From Campylobacteraceae bacterium (GTDB taxonomy: Bacteria > Campylobacterota > Campylobacteria > Campylobacterales > Sulfurovaceae), in assembly GCA_027014605.1 (NCBI GenBank), contig JALWDJ010000022.1, positions 1 through 46,688 of the forward strand: a stretch of DNA of 46,688 nt, read 5' to 3'. A program made the translations under genes and the position numbers. The first letter of the stretch is position 1, and every line of letters starts with the position of its first letter. Below are positions 9,219 through 19,080 of this stretch, piece by piece. The notes beneath the pieces are model-generated. The model worked only from the letters and a program-made list of their open reading frames with translations, was not told the origin of the DNA and searched no databases.

Positions 9219-10449
9219 CTCTCTCCAATCTAATTTTAGGCTCAAGTCTCGATATCCCAATAAATTGATTTCCCTTAATTCCTGCTACTTCAAATTCAGA
9301 CGCATGGTCTAACCAGTGGGAGCAGTTTTCAAGATGTGTCTCTTTTGAGTGTATAGCTGTTGTTAGGCTATATTTGCCTACTCCTATATTTAGAGGCATA
9401 CTAAAGCTACAGATATACTCACTATCTTTTTGAAAATTTATATCTATATTATGGTAAAAGGTGTTTGTTCCAAAAATATCTTGACCAAACCTATCTCTAA
9501 TCATTATACCAACAGTCATATTTGATAAATCTTTTTTAGATTTTATTTTAAGTCTAATCTCAGTATTTTCTCCTGAACTGATTAGATTTGATTTTGAACT
9601 TTCACCTATTATATTAACCTCTACTATCTCTATGTCAAATGTTCCATAGGAGCTTTTAGACTCTTTAATGGTCATCTTCTCATCTCTATCATTTAGAGCC
9701 GATATTAAAAAATTATAACTATTTATTACATCTTCAGGCTCTCCAACTTTTGTTATTCTTCCATTATTCAATAAAATTACTCTATCACATAAAATCTTTA
9801 GTGAGTTTAAATCATGAGATACATATATAATAGACATATTCTCATCTTTCCTCTCTTTTAATGCTCTTGTGCATTTAGATGAGAAATGTGCATCTCCTAC
9901 ACTTAGAGCCTCATCTACAATTAATATTTGAGGTTCAGAGAATATTGCAATAGAGAAAGCCAATCTCATACTCATACCAGATGAGTAGGTCATAATAGGT
10001 TCATATATATAATCACCCAACTCACTAAAATCTATAATATCATCTATCTTTCTATCTATCTCTCTTTTTGTCATACCAATTAGAGTTCCATTTAGATAGA
10101 TATTATCATATCCACTCATCTCATGGTTAAATCCAGTTCCAAGTTCAAGTAGTGCAGTAACTCTACCACCTCTAATAATCTCTCCAGAGGTTGGCTCAAT
10201 TACACCTGCGATAATCTTTAAAATTGTCGATTTTCCAGCTCCATTAACTCCAATAATACCTAAAGTCTCCCCCTCAAACAGACTAAAGGAGATATTATCA
10301 TTTGCTATAAACTCTCTATGATAACTTTTTTTAAAAAAAATCTCTTTTAATCTATCAAAACTATTCTTATAGATTTTATATACTTTGGAGATATTTTTAA
10401 CCTCTAAAACTTTTCTCATTAAATTATATCTTTTTTCGTATATTAACAT
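9202..10449 (-). CDS. wzt: Wzt-like ABC transporter ATPase with C-terminal cargo-binding domain
   Basis: A 415-residue ATPase of polysaccharide export. The nucleotide-binding domain (about 14-250) has Walker A GVNGAGKST (67-75), signature YSSGM (155-159), Walker B ILIVDE (175-180) followed by ALSVGD, and the switch His in YVSHDLNSL. These details are characteristic of the KpsT/Wzt/TagH group. Residues about 265-400 form an added beta-sandwich like the Wzt C-terminal domain, which in O9a-type systems recognises the methyl-capped glycan before export. Its ATG shares one base with the histidine kinase stop (TAATG), and its end overlaps the methyltransferase start by 17 bases, so translation of the three is likely coupled. 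No ribosome site is clear at 10449; an in-frame ATG 30 bases inside (MRKVLEVKN) is an alternative start. The partner permease is not in this window. Confidence 0.85.
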   Translation of the reverse strand: MLIYEKRYNLMRKVLEVKNISKVYKIYKNSFDRLKEIFFKKSYHREFIANDNISFSLFEGETLGIIGVNGAGKSTILKIIAGVIEPTSGEIIRGGRVTALLELGTGFNHEMSGYDNIYLNGTLIGMTKREIDRKIDDIIDFSELGDYIYEPIMTYSSGMSMRLAFSIAIFSEPQILIVDEALSVGDAHFSSKCTRALKERKDENMSIIYVSHDLNSLKILCDRVILLNNGRITKVGEPEDVINSYNFLISALNDRDEKMTIKESKSSYGTFDIEIVEVNIIGESSKSNLISSGENTEIRLKIKSKKDLSNMTVGIMIRDRFGQDIFGTNTFYHNIDINFQKDSEYICSFSMPLNIGVGKYSLTTAIHSKETHLENCSHWLDHASEFEVAGIKGNQFIGISRLEPKIRLERDDRDK

Positions 10450-12638
10450 TAATTTTCTTCAATATTCAATATCTTTAATGCTACATCAAATTTATAACTT
10501 TTTACTAAAGTTTTAATTTTTGTAAATATCTCTATCTCTTCATCTGATAGATTATAACCCTCTATCTCTTGTATAACGCTATTACATCGCTTGGGTCTTC
10601 TGCTCTTTAGAGCATCTCTTAATTTATAGAATATTCTATTTTGTACAGTAATAGTAGATCTATTTATAGTACTAGGAGGTGTATATTTTAATATAGTTTC
10701 ATATAGTTCCTCTACATTTATTGGTTTATTTATATGTGAGTTCATTCCAGAATTTAGACTTTTAGCAATATCATCTTTCATTGCATTTGCTGTAATTGCA
10801 ATGATAGGAATATTTTTATCTTTTTGTCTAATAATTTTTGTAGCCTCATATCCATCCATAATTGGCATCTGTATATCCATAAGAATAAGTGTATATATAT
10901 TTGGTTTAAATCTATCTATTGCCTCTTTTCCATTAGATACAATATCTAATTCTATTTTAGAGTTCTCTAATAAACCCATAACTATCTCTTGATTTATCTC
11001 ATTATCATCAACAAGTAGTATTTTACATCCTCTAAGCATATTTATATTACATCGTAATTTTTTATCTCTACTTATAGGTACTATATATTTTATAGATTCT
11101 TTTTTCTCTTTCACCTCTTTTAATTCAATCTCAAATATAAAACTACTACCTACTCCATATTCACTCTCAACCCATATCTTACCATTCATAAGTTCAACAA
11201 GCTGTTTAGATATTGTAAGTCCTAAACCTGTACCACCATAATCTCTAGTTGTACTTCCATCAGCTTGAGAGAATGCTTTAAAAATTTTCTCTTGCTCCTT
11301 TTTAGTTAAACCAATACCTGTATCTTTTACTATAAATTTAAATCTATTTTTAGCTATTCTACTTACAGATAGAGTTATTTTACCTCCAGTTTGTGTAAAT
11401 TTTACAGCATTACTAAATAGATTATTTAGAATTTGAGATACTCTTAGGCTATCTCCATATAACTTTTTAGGAGTATTTTTATCATATTCTATTTTAATTT
11501 TTATTCTTTTTTTTCTGGCTTGAAACTTTATCAAGTCTAATGTATTTTCTATTAATTTATCTAAATTAAATTCAACCTTATCAATAATAAGTTTTCCTGA
11601 TTCTATCTTGGATAAATCTAATATATCATTAATGATAGATAGTAGTGATTTAGCAGAATTTTCAATCTTTTCTATATAGTTTCTCTGTTTAGTTGTAAGA
11701 TTTGTTTGAAGTACTAAATAACTCATACCAACAATACCATTAATAGGTGTTCTTATCTCATGTGACATATTTGCTAGAAATTCTGATTTGAGTTTAGATG
11801 TCTCTTCTGCTTTTATTTTAAGTCTATTTAGCCTAATAAAATCTCTCTCAAGTCTAGATTGTACTCTATTAAATCCATTAACAATCATACCTATCTCATC
11901 ATCTCTTTTAGGTATCATCTTTTTTGAAAAATCTGGCTTCTCTTTTATAAGATTATCTAAAGATTTATATACCTTTTCAAATCTACTTCTAATACTATAT
12001 ATTAGGTATAGAGCCATACTTATAATAACAATTAATCCTAAAACAGAGAGTATGAATGAGAGTTGAAAATATCTATGTGTATTTTCAGATATCTTTCTAA
12101 TTGATTTTTTTAAAATATTATAGGATTTTATCTTTTGATTTTCATATAAATCTCTTATTTTATCTCTAATATTCTGAAAAGATTTAATATATCTACTGTT
12201 TCCTTTGACTATAACATCTTTAGTTGTTTTTACTCCAATATTATAAAACTCTTGAAGCATATTTTTTTGTTTGTCTATTATATTACTATTATTATATTTA
12301 CTTAATTCATTTAATCTTTTATCAATTTCAATTTTACTCTTTTCTATCTTCTTTAATCCATCTATCTCTTTTGTTGTAGCAACATCATTAAATTGTGTAA
12401 TCATATTTTTTAAAATAGCTAGATTTTCTCTATCTAAAAAGGCAATTTGAGATTTTTTTAGTTCAATACTATTTAATTCATTAACACTATCTCTTGTGAA
12501 TTGATAACTTATTGATATATAGACTACAAAAAAGAGTAAAATAATTATAAATATAATACGAATTTTCTCAGTTATAGTAAAATTAAATATCTTGATATCT
12601 ATTTCCCCCTTATTTAAATCTTGAGGAAATGATATCAT
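10449..12638 (-). CDS. Hybrid sensor histidine kinase with receiver domain
   Basis: A 729-residue inner-membrane kinase. Transmembrane helices at about 26-45 and 192-215 flank a helical periplasmic sensor region. A HAMP linker (about 216-270) leads to the dimerisation domain with phospho-acceptor H293 in [11 protein letters not shown]. The ATPase domain has the N box [14 protein letters not shown]1 KDTGIGL and G2 GGTGLGL. A receiver follows (about 538-655, [10 protein letters not shown], with acceptor D588 in LMDIQMP and the KP motif INKPINV). The C-terminal 75 residues are unassigned helices, not an obvious HPt. A separate HPt-receiver protein and a lone receiver are encoded just upstream, so a multi-step phosphorelay is likely. 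A small PstS-like protein gene lies 14 bases upstream and could supply its periplasmic ligand sensor. Coupling to the Wzt gene is striking. Confidence 0.9.
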
Positions 12639-12652
12639 ATTTTAAGAAAAAA

Positions 12653-13036
12653 TTATCTAATAGTTATTAAGATTTTTCCTGTCAATTTATTTTTAGTATA
12701 AGATATAACTTTTGGATTTTGTTTTATTTTCTTTTCTATTTGAGAAGTTGATAATCTTTCTGGAGGCTGTTTATTTCCTCTATATATCTCTTTCATCCAA
12801 TATGCATGTAACTGTTTGGGTGTTTTTTTTATAACCTTTTTACAAAATTCATTATAACCATCTTTATTATCTATCGGTATCACCTTTATCCCATTAATAG
12901 TATCTATTTTTTTTAAATATACTTTAGCTAACTCTTCTATTGTAACTCCTTTAAGGGGATTTTTAGGGGATGTTATGATAGCAATATCTGCAAATGTAAA
13001 TATAGTAAGTATTATATATATTGCAAATACTCTCAT
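12653..13036 (-). CDS. Small PstS-like periplasmic substrate-binding protein
   Basis: A 127-residue exported protein with a short N-terminal signal (MRVFAIYIILTIFTFADIA). The mature part resembles the compact PstS-like family usually annotated as a phosphate ABC transporter substrate-binding protein: NPLKGVTIEELAKVYLKK, then IPIDNKDGYNEFCKKVIKKTPKQL, then YWMKEIYRGNKQPPERL and NPKVISYTKN. Full-length PstS is more than twice this length, so this is a single-lobe version. No transporter genes accompany it. It sits 14 bases upstream of a hybrid kinase, which argues for a sensory role in presenting a ligand to the kinase; this is inference. It has a strong ribosome site (AAAGGAGAG) and a TATAAT about 70 bases upstream on the same strand. 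Confidence 0.75.
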   Translation of the reverse strand: MRVFAIYIILTIFTFADIAIITSPKNPLKGVTIEELAKVYLKKIDTINGIKVIPIDNKDGYNEFCKKVIKKTPKQLHAYWMKEIYRGNKQPPERLSTSQIEKKIKQNPKVISYTKNKLTGKILITIR

Positions 13037-13108
13037 TGTCTCTCCTTTAATGTTAATATTAGAAGTATATCTCTTTAAATATTAAATTAAACTTAAAAAA
13101 TAATATTT

Positions 13109-13114
13109 ATTATA
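13109..13114 (-). promoter_or_regulatory. -10-like box ahead of the PBP-kinase-glycan operon
   Basis: TATAAT on the minus strand within CTTTATAATAAA, about 73 bases upstream of the PstS-like gene. It lies in the 104-base gap after the HPt-receiver gene and could start a transcript running through the kinase into the glycan genes. Confidence 0.4.
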
Positions 13115-13140
13115 AAGTATAAAGATTAACTTAAAATTAA

Positions 13141-13815
13141 TTAATTTAAGTATCTATCTATTTTATCTTCTAACTTTTTAATATTTATTGGTTTTAAAAT
13201 ATACTCAATGGAGTTGATATCGAAAATTTTATTAATATTTACTTTATTACTATCTTCAATAAGTAATATTATTGGTATTTTCATCTTTTTAATATAAGAA
13301 TATATTTCAAAAATATCTATATTATCTATAGTAGTATCTAATAGAACAATTGATATTGACTCCTCTTTTAAAGTGTCTAATGCACTATTATTATCTAATG
13401 CAACAACTACATCGTATTTATCATCAAAAACTTCAACTAAAATATCAATATCTATTATCTTATCACTCATAAGTAGAATAGTTCTATTTTTACTTTTTTC
13501 AAATACTAAAATTAATTCATTAATAACAATAGATAACTCTTTTGAAAAATCTTTTAATTTATCTATATTCTTATTATTATGAATAGTTGTTGCTACTTTA
13601 TTTAAATTTATCATACCAAGTGTAGAGGAGAGCCCTTTAATACCGTGTATCATATCTTTTGTTTCATTATCTTTTAATCTATCTATCTTTAAATCTCTAT
13701 AACGATGTAGGAAATTATTTAATATTTTAAGATATAATTTTTTGTTATTATTTAAATATTTTAAACCTATATTTGTATCTATATTCTGAAAGTATGGTAA
13801 CTGTATATTTTCCAT
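13141..13815 (-). CDS. HPt-receiver phosphorelay protein
   Basis: A 224-residue cytoplasmic protein. Residues about 10-105 are a histidine phosphotransfer helical bundle with acceptor H57 in IHGIKGLSSTLGM, matching the HPt consensus H-x-x-K-G-x-x-x-x-L-G. Residues about 112-224 are a receiver domain: TILLMSDK carries the first acidic residue, D160 in VLLDTTID is the likely acceptor, and ILKPINIKKL holds the invariant Lys-Pro. The usual second acidic residue of the receiver pocket is not obvious (MSD rather than DD), so magnesium binding and phosphorylation may be weak. Gene order suggests it relays phosphate between the hybrid kinase downstream and the lone receiver 24 bases upstream. It carries no output domain. 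Confidence 0.8.
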   Translation of the reverse strand: MENIQLPYFQNIDTNIGLKYLNNNKKLYLKILNNFLHRYRDLKIDRLKDNETKDMIHGIKGLSSTLGMINLNKVATTIHNNKNIDKLKDFSKELSIVINELILVFEKSKNRTILLMSDKIIDIDILVEVFDDKYDVVVALDNNSALDTLKEESISIVLLDTTIDNIDIFEIYSYIKKMKIPIILLIEDSNKVNINKIFDINSIEYILKPINIKKLEDKIDRYLN

Positions 13816-13839
13816 AATATTCCCCTCTATAAAAAAATA

Positions 13840-14205
13840 TTATATAATATATCTAAAAAATGTTTTATATAGCCTTTTAGGCTCTATTGGTTTAGAGAGA
13901 TACTCATTCATTCCTACCTCTCTACTTTTTTTTATTGCATAGCTATCGACATGTGCTGAAAGTGCTACAATAGGTATATTCTCATCTAATATTCTTATCT
14001 GTTCTGTGGCTTCATAACCATTCATTATAGGCATATCAATATCCATTAAAATTAGAGCATAATTAATATATTTGCATTTTTCTACAGCCTCTTTTCCATT
14101 ATTTGCAATATCTATTTCAAATTTACTATCTTCTAAAAGTCCTAATATAATATCTTGGTTAATTTTTTTATCTTCTGTTAGAAGTATTTTTATCTTTTTT
14201 ATCAT
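13840..14205 (-). CDS. Single-domain response regulator (CheY-like receiver)
   Basis: A 121-residue protein consisting only of a receiver: acidic pair ED at 11-12 in LLTEDKKIN, acceptor D55 in LMDIDMP, switch Ser in VALSAHV and KP in YLSKPIEP. It closely resembles the receiver of the nearby hybrid kinase (both have INQxIxxGLLExSKxExDI), so the two probably arose by duplication. With no DNA-binding domain it would act by protein contact or as an intermediate or phosphate sink in the relay. TAGGAAC upstream of ATG 14205 serves as ribosome site. It is the first gene of a pair with the HPt-receiver gene. Confidence 0.85.
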   Translation of the reverse strand: MIKKIKILLTEDKKINQDIILGLLEDSKFEIDIANNGKEAVEKCKYINYALILMDIDMPIMNGYEATEQIRILDENIPIVALSAHVDSYAIKKSREVGMNEYLSKPIEPKRLYKTFFRYII

Positions 14206-14279: not shown

Positions 14280-15200
14280 TTATTTGTTTACTTTGAAATA
14301 GATAAGCATAGTAGATAAAAGAAAGTGTCCATTATTATCTGAAACCATTAGATATCTATCTTTTCCAACTCTAGCTAAACCTTCAAAATTGTTGTATCCT
14401 CCTCCATTATCACTATTAAATATCTCTAAAACTTCTGATTTACAATTTCTATATCTATCACATCTATTTAAATAAACCTTTTTTAGTGTAATATAGATAG
14501 GATAGGTTAATCCTTTATATGCTCTCTCTAATACTAAGATATTTCCATCATCCATTACCTCTAAAGCTGTAATGGCAGAGTTGGGATATGATTGAGCTTT
14601 AAAATGCCACTCTTTTCCATTTAGAGAGTATATTGTCTGATTTATATTTTTTTGTCTATTAATAGGATATTCAGAGGCTATTAATATTCCATATTTAGGG
14701 TGATATGCGACTGCTTCCAACATACTATTTCTACTTCTATAAATATGTCTATTTTGTAGTTTTTTAGGTATTTTATAGTTTATAACTAATCTTCCATCTT
14801 TAGTTATCTTTTTTACTCTTGGATACCTCTCAAATGAGGCTATAAGTTCGTCTCTGTTATTATGAGTTAATCCTTCAATATCTGGATGTATAACTTTACC
14901 ATTTAATGCTTTAATATGAAATGCATTTAAATATTTGAGCTTTTCTATCTTTCTATTAAATTTAGCGTAAAAAGAGTAGAAATATCCTCTATCTCCTATC
15001 ATATATAATCTATGCCTTTTTTTATCATAGGTTAAATCAGAGATACCTTCAAAAGGGATACCATTTCTATCTAAAAATATAAGACTTCTCTGGTCTAAGA
15101 TAGTAATTTTACTATTAATATTACCTCGTGCAATAAGAGGTGTTATAGTACAGCCTGTGAATATAAAATATATAATAATTAATATAATTCTGTTTTTCAT
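14280..15200 (-). CDS. Phytase-like-domain (esterase-like) lipoprotein
   Basis: A 306-residue protein with a lipoprotein signal (MKNRIILIIIYFIFTGC, lipobox FTGC, Cys 17), so it is anchored to a membrane facing the periplasm or exterior. The body resembles the domain called esterase-like activity of phytase family: FEGISDLTYDKKRHRLYMIGDRG near the start, HPDIEGLTHN, FERYPRVKKI, SMLEAVAYHPKYG, and near the end GGGYNNFEGLARVGKDRYLMVSDNNG. These are the characteristic beta-propeller blades. Enzymatic activity is poorly established for the family. It may deal with organic phosphate or simply be structural. It is divergent from minC and lies next to the signalling block, 74 bases upstream of the receiver gene. 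Confidence 0.75.
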   Translation of the reverse strand: MKNRIILIIIYFIFTGCTITPLIARGNINSKITILDQRSLIFLDRNGIPFEGISDLTYDKKRHRLYMIGDRGYFYSFYAKFNRKIEKLKYLNAFHIKALNGKVIHPDIEGLTHNNRDELIASFERYPRVKKITKDGRLVINYKIPKKLQNRHIYRSRNSMLEAVAYHPKYGILIASEYPINRQKNINQTIYSLNGKEWHFKAQSYPNSAITALEVMDDGNILVLERAYKGLTYPIYITLKKVYLNRCDRYRNCKSEVLEIFNSDNGGGYNNFEGLARVGKDRYLMVSDNNGHFLLSTMLIYFKVNK

Positions 15201-17010: not shown

Positions 17011-17030
17011 ACCCAAAATTGGGTAATTTT
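17011..17030. terminator. Bidirectional terminator between minE and the porin gene
   Basis: ACCCAA at 17011-17016 and TTGGGT at 17019-17024 form a compact hairpin flanked by A/T on both sides (AATTTT on the plus strand), between two convergent stops. Confidence 0.6.
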
Positions 17031-18213
17031 ACCATTCAACTTCTGCAGTTATCATAAAAGCATCTCTCTTTTGAGTGTCATTTAATTTATCCCCTCCCTC
17101 TTTAAGGTAGTTTAGAATAAATTCCACATTTTTGTTATATTCATAAGATAGACCAGCTATTGCTCTTTTTTTATCTCCAGAGTTATCATCCATATCAAAA
17201 TAGTCATATCTTCCTAATAGACTAAATTTAGACATAAATCTATACTCTCCATTTACAGAGTATCCTGTCCCCTTTTTAGAGGCAATTCCATCAGAGACAT
17301 CAATATATTCACCTGCTACTAAAAATAGAGGTTGATTATATACAGCATGTAGCCCCATCCAGTTTAAATCTTTATTTCCATGTTTATTACTTTTGCTATT
17401 TTGTTGTCCAAAAAATGATATATTTGCATAGGTTAGAGATTTTTTAGATTTCCTTTTACCAGTTCCTAAAATATGCCCTGTTAATCTCCACTCTTTACTT
17501 AACCCTCGACCATCCTCTTTATTATGGTATCCCTCACCATTAAATACTCCTAATTCACTTGAAAAGTAGTCTAATTTCGTTTTAAAATTAATACCTCTAT
17601 CAGCAGAGTTTGTAATATCAGCTCCATATTTAGCCTCTACTAGAGTTTTAGAGATTGAACGATAGAACCAACCATTATGCTCTTCATAATCAATCCAAGG
17701 TCTATGAGCCTGTCCAAACTCTACTCCTGTGTGTGGTAAAATATTATTTAAGAATAGATAAGCATATTTGAGTCTTATATTACTCTCTCCATCTTTTGTA
17801 TCATGAGTATCCATTGTAATTCTTACATAATCTTTTGGATTTTCTTTAAAGTATGCTTTAGCTTGGAAGTAGTTTCTTCTTGTCTCAAATTTATTTGTAC
17901 TATCTCCCTTTTTAGGTGAACTATTAACAAAACCTAAATAGTGTGTTCCATTTAATTTAATAACACCTGCATGAGATTTTATAGTAACTCCATGATGTTT
18001 AGGCTCTTTTTGTATAACTTTACTTTTAACCTCTATAGGTTTTCTATTTTCAAGTTTTGTAAGTTTATCCTTTACACGGCTAAGCTCCTCTTTTAGCATC
18101 TCTATATCTGCACTGTTATTATCACTATTTACATAACTAGATGGTTCTGTAATATCTCCTCCTGCAAATCCTATCGTTCCCATAACCACTGTTGATAGTA
18201 TAATTTTTTTCAT
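17029..18213 (-). CDS. OprO/OprP-family outer-membrane porin
   Basis: A 394-residue outer-membrane channel. It has a signal peptide (MKKIILSTVVMGTIGFAGG), then a periplasmic coiled coil (about 37-58, IEMLKEELSRVKDKLTKLEN), then a beta-barrel with alternating aromatic strands ending in Trp after TAEVE, the usual BAM recognition end. Segments such as FETRRNYFQAKAYFKEN, RLKYAYLFLNNILPHTGVEFGQAH and WFYRSISKTLVEAKYGADITN match phosphate-selective porins O and P. True anion or phosphate selectivity cannot be read with certainty, since the family is broad in Campylobacterota. A good ribosome site (AATAGGAG) precedes ATG 18213. Upstream lie three 11-bp-phased TGTAACT-like repeats with Pho-box geometry, which fits a phosphate-regulated porin. 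Confidence 0.82.
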   Translation of the reverse strand: MKKIILSTVVMGTIGFAGGDITEPSSYVNSDNNSADIEMLKEELSRVKDKLTKLENRKPIEVKSKVIQKEPKHHGVTIKSHAGVIKLNGTHYLGFVNSSPKKGDSTNKFETRRNYFQAKAYFKENPKDYVRITMDTHDTKDGESNIRLKYAYLFLNNILPHTGVEFGQAHRPWIDYEEHNGWFYRSISKTLVEAKYGADITNSADRGINFKTKLDYFSSELGVFNGEGYHNKEDGRGLSKEWRLTGHILGTGKRKSKKSLTYANISFFGQQNSKSNKHGNKDLNWMGLHAVYNQPLFLVAGEYIDVSDGIASKKGTGYSVNGEYRFMSKFSLLGRYDYFDMDDNSGDKKRAIAGLSYEYNKNVEFILNYLKEGGDKLNDTQKRDAFMITAEVEW

Positions 18214-18245
18214 AAAATACTCCTATTATTTTAATAATCAAATTG

Positions 18246-18251
18246 TATAAT
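18246..18251 (+). promoter_or_regulatory. -10-like box for the PhyH-family gene
   Basis: TATAAT in TGTATAAT, about 46 bases upstream of the dioxygenase ATG. It overlaps the porin promoter on the other strand, so the two genes probably compete for or share control by the adjacent 11-bp repeats. Confidence 0.45.
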
Positions 18252-18255
18252 AGTT

Positions 18256-18285
18256 TAGTTACATTTTAGTTACATTTTAGTTATA
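18256..18285 (-). promoter_or_regulatory. Pho-box-like 11-bp direct repeats upstream of the porin
   Basis: On the minus strand the order is TATAACT, AAAA, TGTAACT, AAAA, TGTAACT: 7-bp elements separated by 4-bp A tracts, exactly 11 bp apart (plus-strand unit starts 18256, 18267, 18278). This is the layout bound by OmpR/PhoB-type response regulators. The array sits about 43-72 bases before the porin ATG, just ahead of a TATTATACAAT stretch that could be its -10. Confidence 0.5.
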
Positions 18286-18297
18286 TAAAGGGTGGAT

Positions 18298-19080
18298 ATG
18301 AGATTAAATCAAAATGAACTTAACTTATTTAATCAAAATGGTTTTATAATATTAAAAGATTTTGCAGATAAAAGAGAGTGTAATGCTATCTTAGATATAG
18401 CTAAAATACATATAAAATATCAGATAGAACCAATAGAGAGAGAAGTTGAGTATCATAATCACTCTAAAGAGTATAGAACTAATGTTATTGATTATAATAG
18501 TACTCTAAATCAAGGTACTATTAGAAGATTAAGACAAGTATATAGTAGAGATACTATATTTAAAAATTGGATGGAAAATAGAAAAATTCGTCCTATTTTA
18601 GAACAGATTTTAGATGACCAAGTAGTAATTACCACAGCACATCACAACTCTATTATGACTAAAATGCCAGAAAAGAGTAGTGAGACTAATTGGCATCAAG
18701 ATATAAGATATTGGAGTTTTACAGATAGTAATTTAATAAGCATTTGGCTAGCTTTAGGGGATGAAAATAGTCAAAATGGTGCTTTAGAGTTTATCCCTAA
18801 GAGTCATAAAATGAGTTTTAGTAGCAATCAATTTGATAATAAAGATTATTTCAGAGATGATTATAAACAAAATATGTCACTTATAGAAACAAAAGTGTTA
18901 ACTGCTTTAAATAAGGGAGATATAGTTATTTTTCACTCTCGTCTTCTACATAGAGCAAATAGAAATAGTACAGATGAGCCTAAAATATCATTTGTATATA
19001 CCGTTAAAGGGGCATCAACTAAAGCTATAGATGGGAGTCGTTCTTTAGCATATCCAGAGATTTTACTAGATAGGACTTGA
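18298..19080 (+). CDS. PhyH-family Fe(II)/2-oxoglutarate dioxygenase
   Basis: A 260-residue cytoplasmic oxygenase of the phytanoyl-CoA dioxygenase family, which hydroxylates or otherwise oxidises small molecules with 2-oxoglutarate, O2 and Fe(II). The iron triad is visible: H133 and D135 in NWHQDIRYW and the distal His (about 218) in FHSRLLHRANRN. The 2-oxoglutarate-binding basic residue is probably in DEPKISFVYT. The fold core LNLFNQNGFIILKDF and GALEFIPKSHK are typical. ATG 18298 is preferred over GTG 18292 because AAGG lies 6 bases before it. The natural substrate is unknown. No pathway partners adjoin it; it lies between the porin and trxA, and an oxygenase is notable in an organism otherwise equipped for anaerobic sulfur respiration. 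Confidence 0.82.
   Translation: MRLNQNELNLFNQNGFIILKDFADKRECNAILDIAKIHIKYQIEPIEREVEYHNHSKEYRTNVIDYNSTLNQGTIRRLRQVYSRDTIFKNWMENRKIRPILEQILDDQVVITTAHHNSIMTKMPEKSSETNWHQDIRYWSFTDSNLISIWLALGDENSQNGALEFIPKSHKMSFSSNQFDNKDYFRDDYKQNMSLIETKVLTALNKGDIVIFHSRLLHRANRNSTDEPKISFVYTVKGASTKAIDGSRSLAYPEILLDRT

Follow-up and report, generated by a model that had tools for sequence, protein, structure and literature searches.

A probable Pho-type operator of 11-bp repeats before a porin gene of Campylobacterales

In Escherichia coli, the Pho box of phoA (CTGTCATAAAGTTGTCAC) is made of 11-bp direct repeats that stand in place of the −35 element, and 15 bp separate the G of the second TGTC from the TATAGT hexamer. 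A site for the PhosR regulator of Campylobacter jejuni was reportedly described by Wosten in 2006. PhosR, which belongs to the same order as the bacterium considered here, is a phosphate-responsive two-component regulator according to parts of PMC4415409 and PMC9449129, and a passage of the former states that the Pho box consensus differs among species. From Gram-positive bacteria a WalR/VicR box is also known, with the consensus TGTWAH-N5-TGTWAH (as given in a passage of PMC4168254).

We analysed a stretch of 46,688 nucleotides (the window) from a draft genome of 1.98 Mb in 97 contigs (Table 1). Between the porin ATG (18213) and the start of a divergent PhyH gene (GTG 18292 or ATG 18298), the minus strand carries TATAACT-AAAA-TGTAACT-AAAA-TGTAACT at 18285–18257. 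Direct reading and pattern search both gave an exact 11-bp period, confirming the three AAAA-separated 7-bp elements of the first-pass annotation. The predicted porin −10, TACAAT, has its first base 15 bp past the G of unit 3, the same distance as in phoA; counted back over a 17-bp spacer from this −10 (18247–18242), a −35 would fall at 18270–18265, inside the array, as had been proposed. With at most 3 mismatches allowed, the three-unit pattern matched the window twice, each time at the array site, and had no match in 100 dinucleotide shuffles of the window. A looser two-unit pattern with 3 mismatches was found 8 times in the whole window against 10.2 expected, not above chance: the excess is confined to the array site and is not window-wide. 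In close relatives that share the divergent PhyH gene, two units precede the porin, so that TATAACT is the extra unit.

Table 1. Features of the porin–PhyH intergenic region and box sites of the pst genes
Feature	Position or sequence	Strand	Basis
Outer-membrane porin, 394 aa, predicted 16-strand barrel; N-terminal coiled coil (may be)	17029..18213	-	Structure model, comparison
Porin ribosome-binding site, AGGAG	18220..18224	-	Read from sequence
Predicted porin −10, TACAAT	18242..18247	-	Slot conserved in 66 aligned promoters
Candidate PhyH −10, TATAAT, overlaps porin −10	18246..18251	+	Present in 3 other genomes with the gene pair
Box unit 3, TGTAACT, promoter-proximal	18257..18263	-	Sequence, pattern; conserved in porin homologues
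Box unit 2, TGTAACT	18268..18274	-	Sequence, pattern; conserved in porin homologues
Box unit 1, TATAACT, extra degenerate upstream unit	18279..18285	-	Sequence reading, pattern search
PhyH-family (PF05721) 2-oxoglutarate dioxygenase gene	18292..19080	+	Profile match
pstS box site, own genome	TGTTATCAATCTGTTAT		Exact, promoter-like
pstC box site, own genome	TGTTACCAAAATGTTAC		Exact, promoter-like

The porin array shares with phoA the 11-bp direct repeats and their place at the −35. Like the E. coli Pho box, the porin-type box also stands before pst genes. A gene for a PhoB-like regulator, whose best NCBIfam match is PhoB with a score below the cut-off, adjoins pstSCAB-phoU. The half-site is TGTWAYC here and CTGTCAT in E. 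coli, base four being A or T and not C; the earlier remark that TGTAACT is unlike the E. coli element thus holds. We did not take this mismatch as defining, because the consensus varies between species (as stated in part of PMC4415409). Half-site and 11-bp period of the array (TGTAAC-N5-TGTAAC) match the WalR/VicR box, as the latter appears in part of PMC4168254. Unlike WalR/VicR sites, those found here mark phosphate uptake genes and not the cell wall, and the regulator ranks PhoB above WalR. The Pho-type element is known, while its consensus and host group are new with respect to the open-access literature searched, where no description of the box was apparent; subscription papers lie mostly outside that literature, so one has possibly been published.

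Conservation of the box was examined before porin homologues. The porin is present in 20 of 34 genomes of the genus, and every locus with readable upstream sequence (17/17; L058, having none, was omitted) carried a GTWAY pair at 11 bp, 15 of the 17 with the stricter GTAAY pair. A scan of public genomes gave 80 porin loci in several genera, sampled from Sulfurovum, Sulfurimonas, Sulfuricurvum and other Campylobacterales MAGs. Three loci were dropped since their match begins at a contig edge (L263, L266, L326), one for lack of a start (L308) and three for short or masked upstream sequence (L274, L286, L301); the remaining ones and the window's own region formed a set of 74. A sense-strand GTAAY pair at spacing 11 occurred in 67 of these (antisense, 1), the regions without a pair being L256, L267, L273, L289, L296, L319 and L323. 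Spacings of 7–10, 12–15, 18 and 19 gave 0–1 pairs each, and spacings of 6, 16 and 17 gave 7–13. Shuffling of the 74 regions gave a mean of 0.03 at spacing 11 (maximum 1). Aligned on the box, 66 promoters show TGTAAYC-N4-TGTAAYC, followed by a −10 that starts 15 bp past the second G (T 95%, A 100%, T/C, A 97%, A/C, T 94%), and the box is kept down to ∼35–45% porin identity, with diverged flanks. The layout corresponds to that of an activator site substituting for a −35 element. In Sulfuricurvum, the porin promoters L276, L284, L293, L316 and L324 carry elaborated arrays of interleaved 11-bp GTAAY pairs, which possibly accommodate two regulator dimers; by eye, the counts at spacings 6, 16 and 17 come from this second, interleaved repeat.

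In the genome of origin, exact TGTAACT-N4-TGTAACT has one occurrence. By itself, this single occurrence would speak against a regulon, but the picture changed once A or T was allowed at base four. TGTWAY-N5-TGTWAY gave 7 exact sites, and three of them, before the porin, pstS and pstC, are promoter-like: the slot holds a hexamer resembling a −10 (TACAAT, TATAAT and TATTAT), and an ATG follows after 60–62 bp. The pstS and pstC sites are the other copies before phosphate genes on which the first-pass annotation had made its reading depend. The remaining four have no gene start downstream; one of them (C17), with TAGGTT at the slot, falls within a coding frame and is not followed by a start codon. 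The genome's phoB-like gene has a degenerate site (matrix score 2.7) and its PiT gene had no box in the upstream scan. Searches with mismatches were less selective: TGTAACT-N4-TGTAACT with 2 mismatches gave 29 sites against 5 for a reversed-pattern control, most of the 29 unconvincing by eye, and TGTWAY-N5-TGTWAY with 1 mismatch is uninformative (251 places; control, 203).

A phosphate-responsive neighbourhood including the nearby PstS-like (12653–13036) and phytase-like (14280–15200) genes, also suggested at first, is not supported: neither gene has a box, their upstream regions reaching at best 9 of 12 box positions, no better than their neighbours, and in the nearest relative (G008) the two are not beside the porin. 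The 127-aa PstS-like protein, whose label comes from the first-pass annotation, matched no Pfam or NCBIfam family. It lies in a minus-strand row at 10449–14205 of the window with a hybrid histidine kinase and two receiver-domain proteins, and no Pho-type box was found at this row.

In relatives, the box was also observed upstream of genes for PiT, PstS, a PlcP-like phosphoesterase and a second porin. As a held-out test, we trained a matrix on porin promoters only, among which the window's own box had the lowest score (15.2), and used it to score 474 genes from the retrieved loci. Median scores were 17.1 for PiT (n = 24), 12.2 for PlcP-like (n = 11) and 11.6 for PstS (n = 13), against −5.6 for other genes (n = 376) and −2.6 for PhoB of >55% identity (n = 33). 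Compared with the 376 other genes, scores were higher for PstS (p 1e-7), PiT (3e-9) and PlcP-like genes (6e-6), p-values that are too small since related sequences were treated as independent and the control genes came from loci fetched for the same question. A binary rule that asked for a GTWAY pair together with TANNNT in the −10 slot was positive for PstS in 10/13, PlcP-like in 9/11, porin in 6/6 and PiT in 15/24; for PhoB in 10/33 (22 of the 33 lacking the pair), lower-identity PhoB-like in 0/6, other regulators in 0/4 and PhyH in 0/1; and for other genes in 14/376. Those 14 include five pstC, one pstB and three genes of the second porin family, identified by sequence, as well as a glycosyltransferase beside a PlcP-like gene.

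A genus-wide scan with TTTGTAAYNANTTTGTAAY gave 59 places against 22 in the control. This pattern misses the porin of the genome of origin, whose flank differs, and its two places there have no downstream gene. Grouping of promoters gave 49 groups, without G009's porin site and a place in G018, neither of which lay in the scanned loci: PiT 10, PlcP-like 5, porin 5, second porin 5, PstS 1, other 10 and none 13. The second porin family (PF16930, Porin_5) carries the box in five relatives (L079, L092, L111, L116 and L117), and in G031 it adjoins phoB and PiT (L240:9058-10182). A boxed metallophosphoesterase was seen near phoB/pstS in L070, L101, L110, L112, L115 and L236:5271-7322; in G009 (L236) there is a second copy, oriented divergently to the gene of a family-4 glycosyltransferase that has a weak box itself. 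This recalls the pair of PlcP and a glycosyltransferase that serves lipid remodelling in marine bacteria, as presented in part of PMC4796936. The genome of origin gave only a weak metallophosphoesterase match.

In an order-wide draw, pstS was found in 70 of 149 genomes; 29 loci from the 69 other pstS-bearing genomes were examined and 26 of them parsed. An 11-bp GTWAY pair was present upstream in 20 of the 26, against a shuffle mean of 0.125. The antisense count (16/26) is no valid control for this loose pattern because GTWAC is self-complementary; spacing and shuffles were used instead. In L377, L379, L380 and L382 a GGTAAC repeat lies farther upstream of a promoter-proximal TGTAACC-N4-TGTATCC-like pair, which suggests double operators.

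Gene order also places the porin among phosphate genes. The porin, phoB and pstS form one row on one strand in G022; G023 has porin and phoB with the end of pstS beyond, G033 porin-pstS-pstC, G024 porin-pstS-PlcP-like and G009 PhoB-like gene-porin-pstS. In the clade of the genome of origin, PhyH adjoins the porin instead of phosphate genes, and the box still precedes the porin.

The name ‘phosphate-selective-type’ given to the porin at first stands in part. The structure model has 16 strands (pLDDT 76.8) and, at its N terminus, a helix that could form a coiled coil. OprP had the highest query TM-score among the matches listed (0.63), general porins scoring alike, and was the best of only three matches, a weak one (E 0.025), in a PDB profile search. 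The porin matched no Pfam or NCBIfam family; Pfam Porin_O_P (PF07396) was not reached by it and by just 1 of 28 homologues, at E 0.0097. As modelled, it is a porin that resembles trimeric porins in general, and we infer that it passes phosphate.

A PhoB-like gene (G000:C71) lies directly upstream of pstS; after pstS come pstC, the gene of another permease, an ABC ATPase gene and phoU. The genes pstA and pstB of this locus were named by position and sequence. The best NCBIfam match of the 227-aa product is PhoB TIGR02154, with 173 bits below the cut-off of 296.2, and it is 36% identical to E. coli PhoB. Among solved structures, E. coli PhoB is the best match of its DNA-binding domain and WalR/YycF the next. 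The recognition helix (KTINVTLNRLRKKI, versus RTVDVHIRRLRKAL in E. coli PhoB) carries R193K, H198T and R200N among other differences and, in the alignment with E. coli PhoB, retains T194, V197, R201 and R203; the compared residues of PhoB contact DNA. Our guess is that the altered helix caused the changed spelling of the box. As for the kinase, 14 proteins of the genome match TIGR02966 (PhoR), none above the cut-off, and the window's hybrid kinase (10449–12638) scores best without being singled out thereby. A PhoB match at E 1e-40 is missing in 6 of the 34 genus genomes, and boxed porins occur in some of the PhoB-less genomes (G024, G028 and G006, drafts 77–87% complete).

Other readings of the array were weighed against these data. 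The uniform AAAA spacer and the three near-identical units are what a functionless 11-bp tandem repeat, made by chance or slippage in AT-rich DNA, would show; conservation across genera down to distant porins, with no hit in the window shuffles and a mean of 0.03 of 74 in shuffled porin upstreams, makes us dismiss such an origin almost entirely. A role of the array for the divergent PhyH gene, with its place before the porin an accident, is also very improbable. The PhyH start is at most 40 bp from the array, whose GTWAC core is self-complementary, yet the −10 slot is on the porin side, and among all porin loci searched PhyH stands beside the porin in only 3 other genomes whereas 67 of 74 porins have the box.

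We find it unlikely, if less so, that a real operator is read here by another OmpR-family regulator, for envelope or other stress, as by CpxR or WalR elsewhere. The genome has 12 proteins with the OmpR-family DNA-binding domain (Trans_reg_C), and boxed promoters of relatives include genes that do not look phosphate-related (the 10 ‘other’ groups); against this, promoter-like exact sites in the genome are only those of porin, pstS and pstC, and the C71 DNA-binding domain is closest to E. coli PhoB, then WalR, its gene adjoining pstS.

Conservation, the other sites in the genome and in relatives and the gene neighbourhood all support the Pho-box-type operator first proposed: very probably, the array is a Pho operator that would be bound by a PhoB-family regulator at low phosphate and drive the porin. 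Points that speak against it are the box-less PiT gene and the degenerate phoB site of the genome, the many PhoB genes of relatives without a pair, the low score of the window's own box, the genus genomes lacking a PhoB match, some of them with boxed porins, and the scores below cut-off of the regulator and of all PhoR matches. From sequence comparison we infer PhoB as binder, low phosphate as signal and activation as effect. When phosphate is scarce, the phosphorylated PhoB-family regulator (C71) would bind the direct repeats head to tail, substitute for the −35 element and recruit RNA polymerase to the −10 at 18247–18242, so that the porin would be made together with the Pst transporter. Should TATAAT be the −10 of PhyH, transcription of that gene would begin within the box, and the bound regulator would block it.

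A wider proposal, which we hold to be somewhat likelier wrong than right, is that Campylobacterales outside Campylobacter share a WalR-like Pho code, TGTWAYC-N4-TGTWAYC, read by a PhoB with an altered helix; that in some Sulfurovum lineages the programme includes phospholipid replacement by the PlcP-like enzyme and glycosyltransferase; and that the window's site is a two-way switch, porin on and PhyH off. With the operator consensus and the promoter geometry, the Pho regulons of sulphur-oxidising Campylobacterales would become predictable from sequence. The operator would also give a likely role to a porin family unnamed in Pfam and NCBIfam, and would be a case of PhoB- and WalR-type sites converging in sequence.
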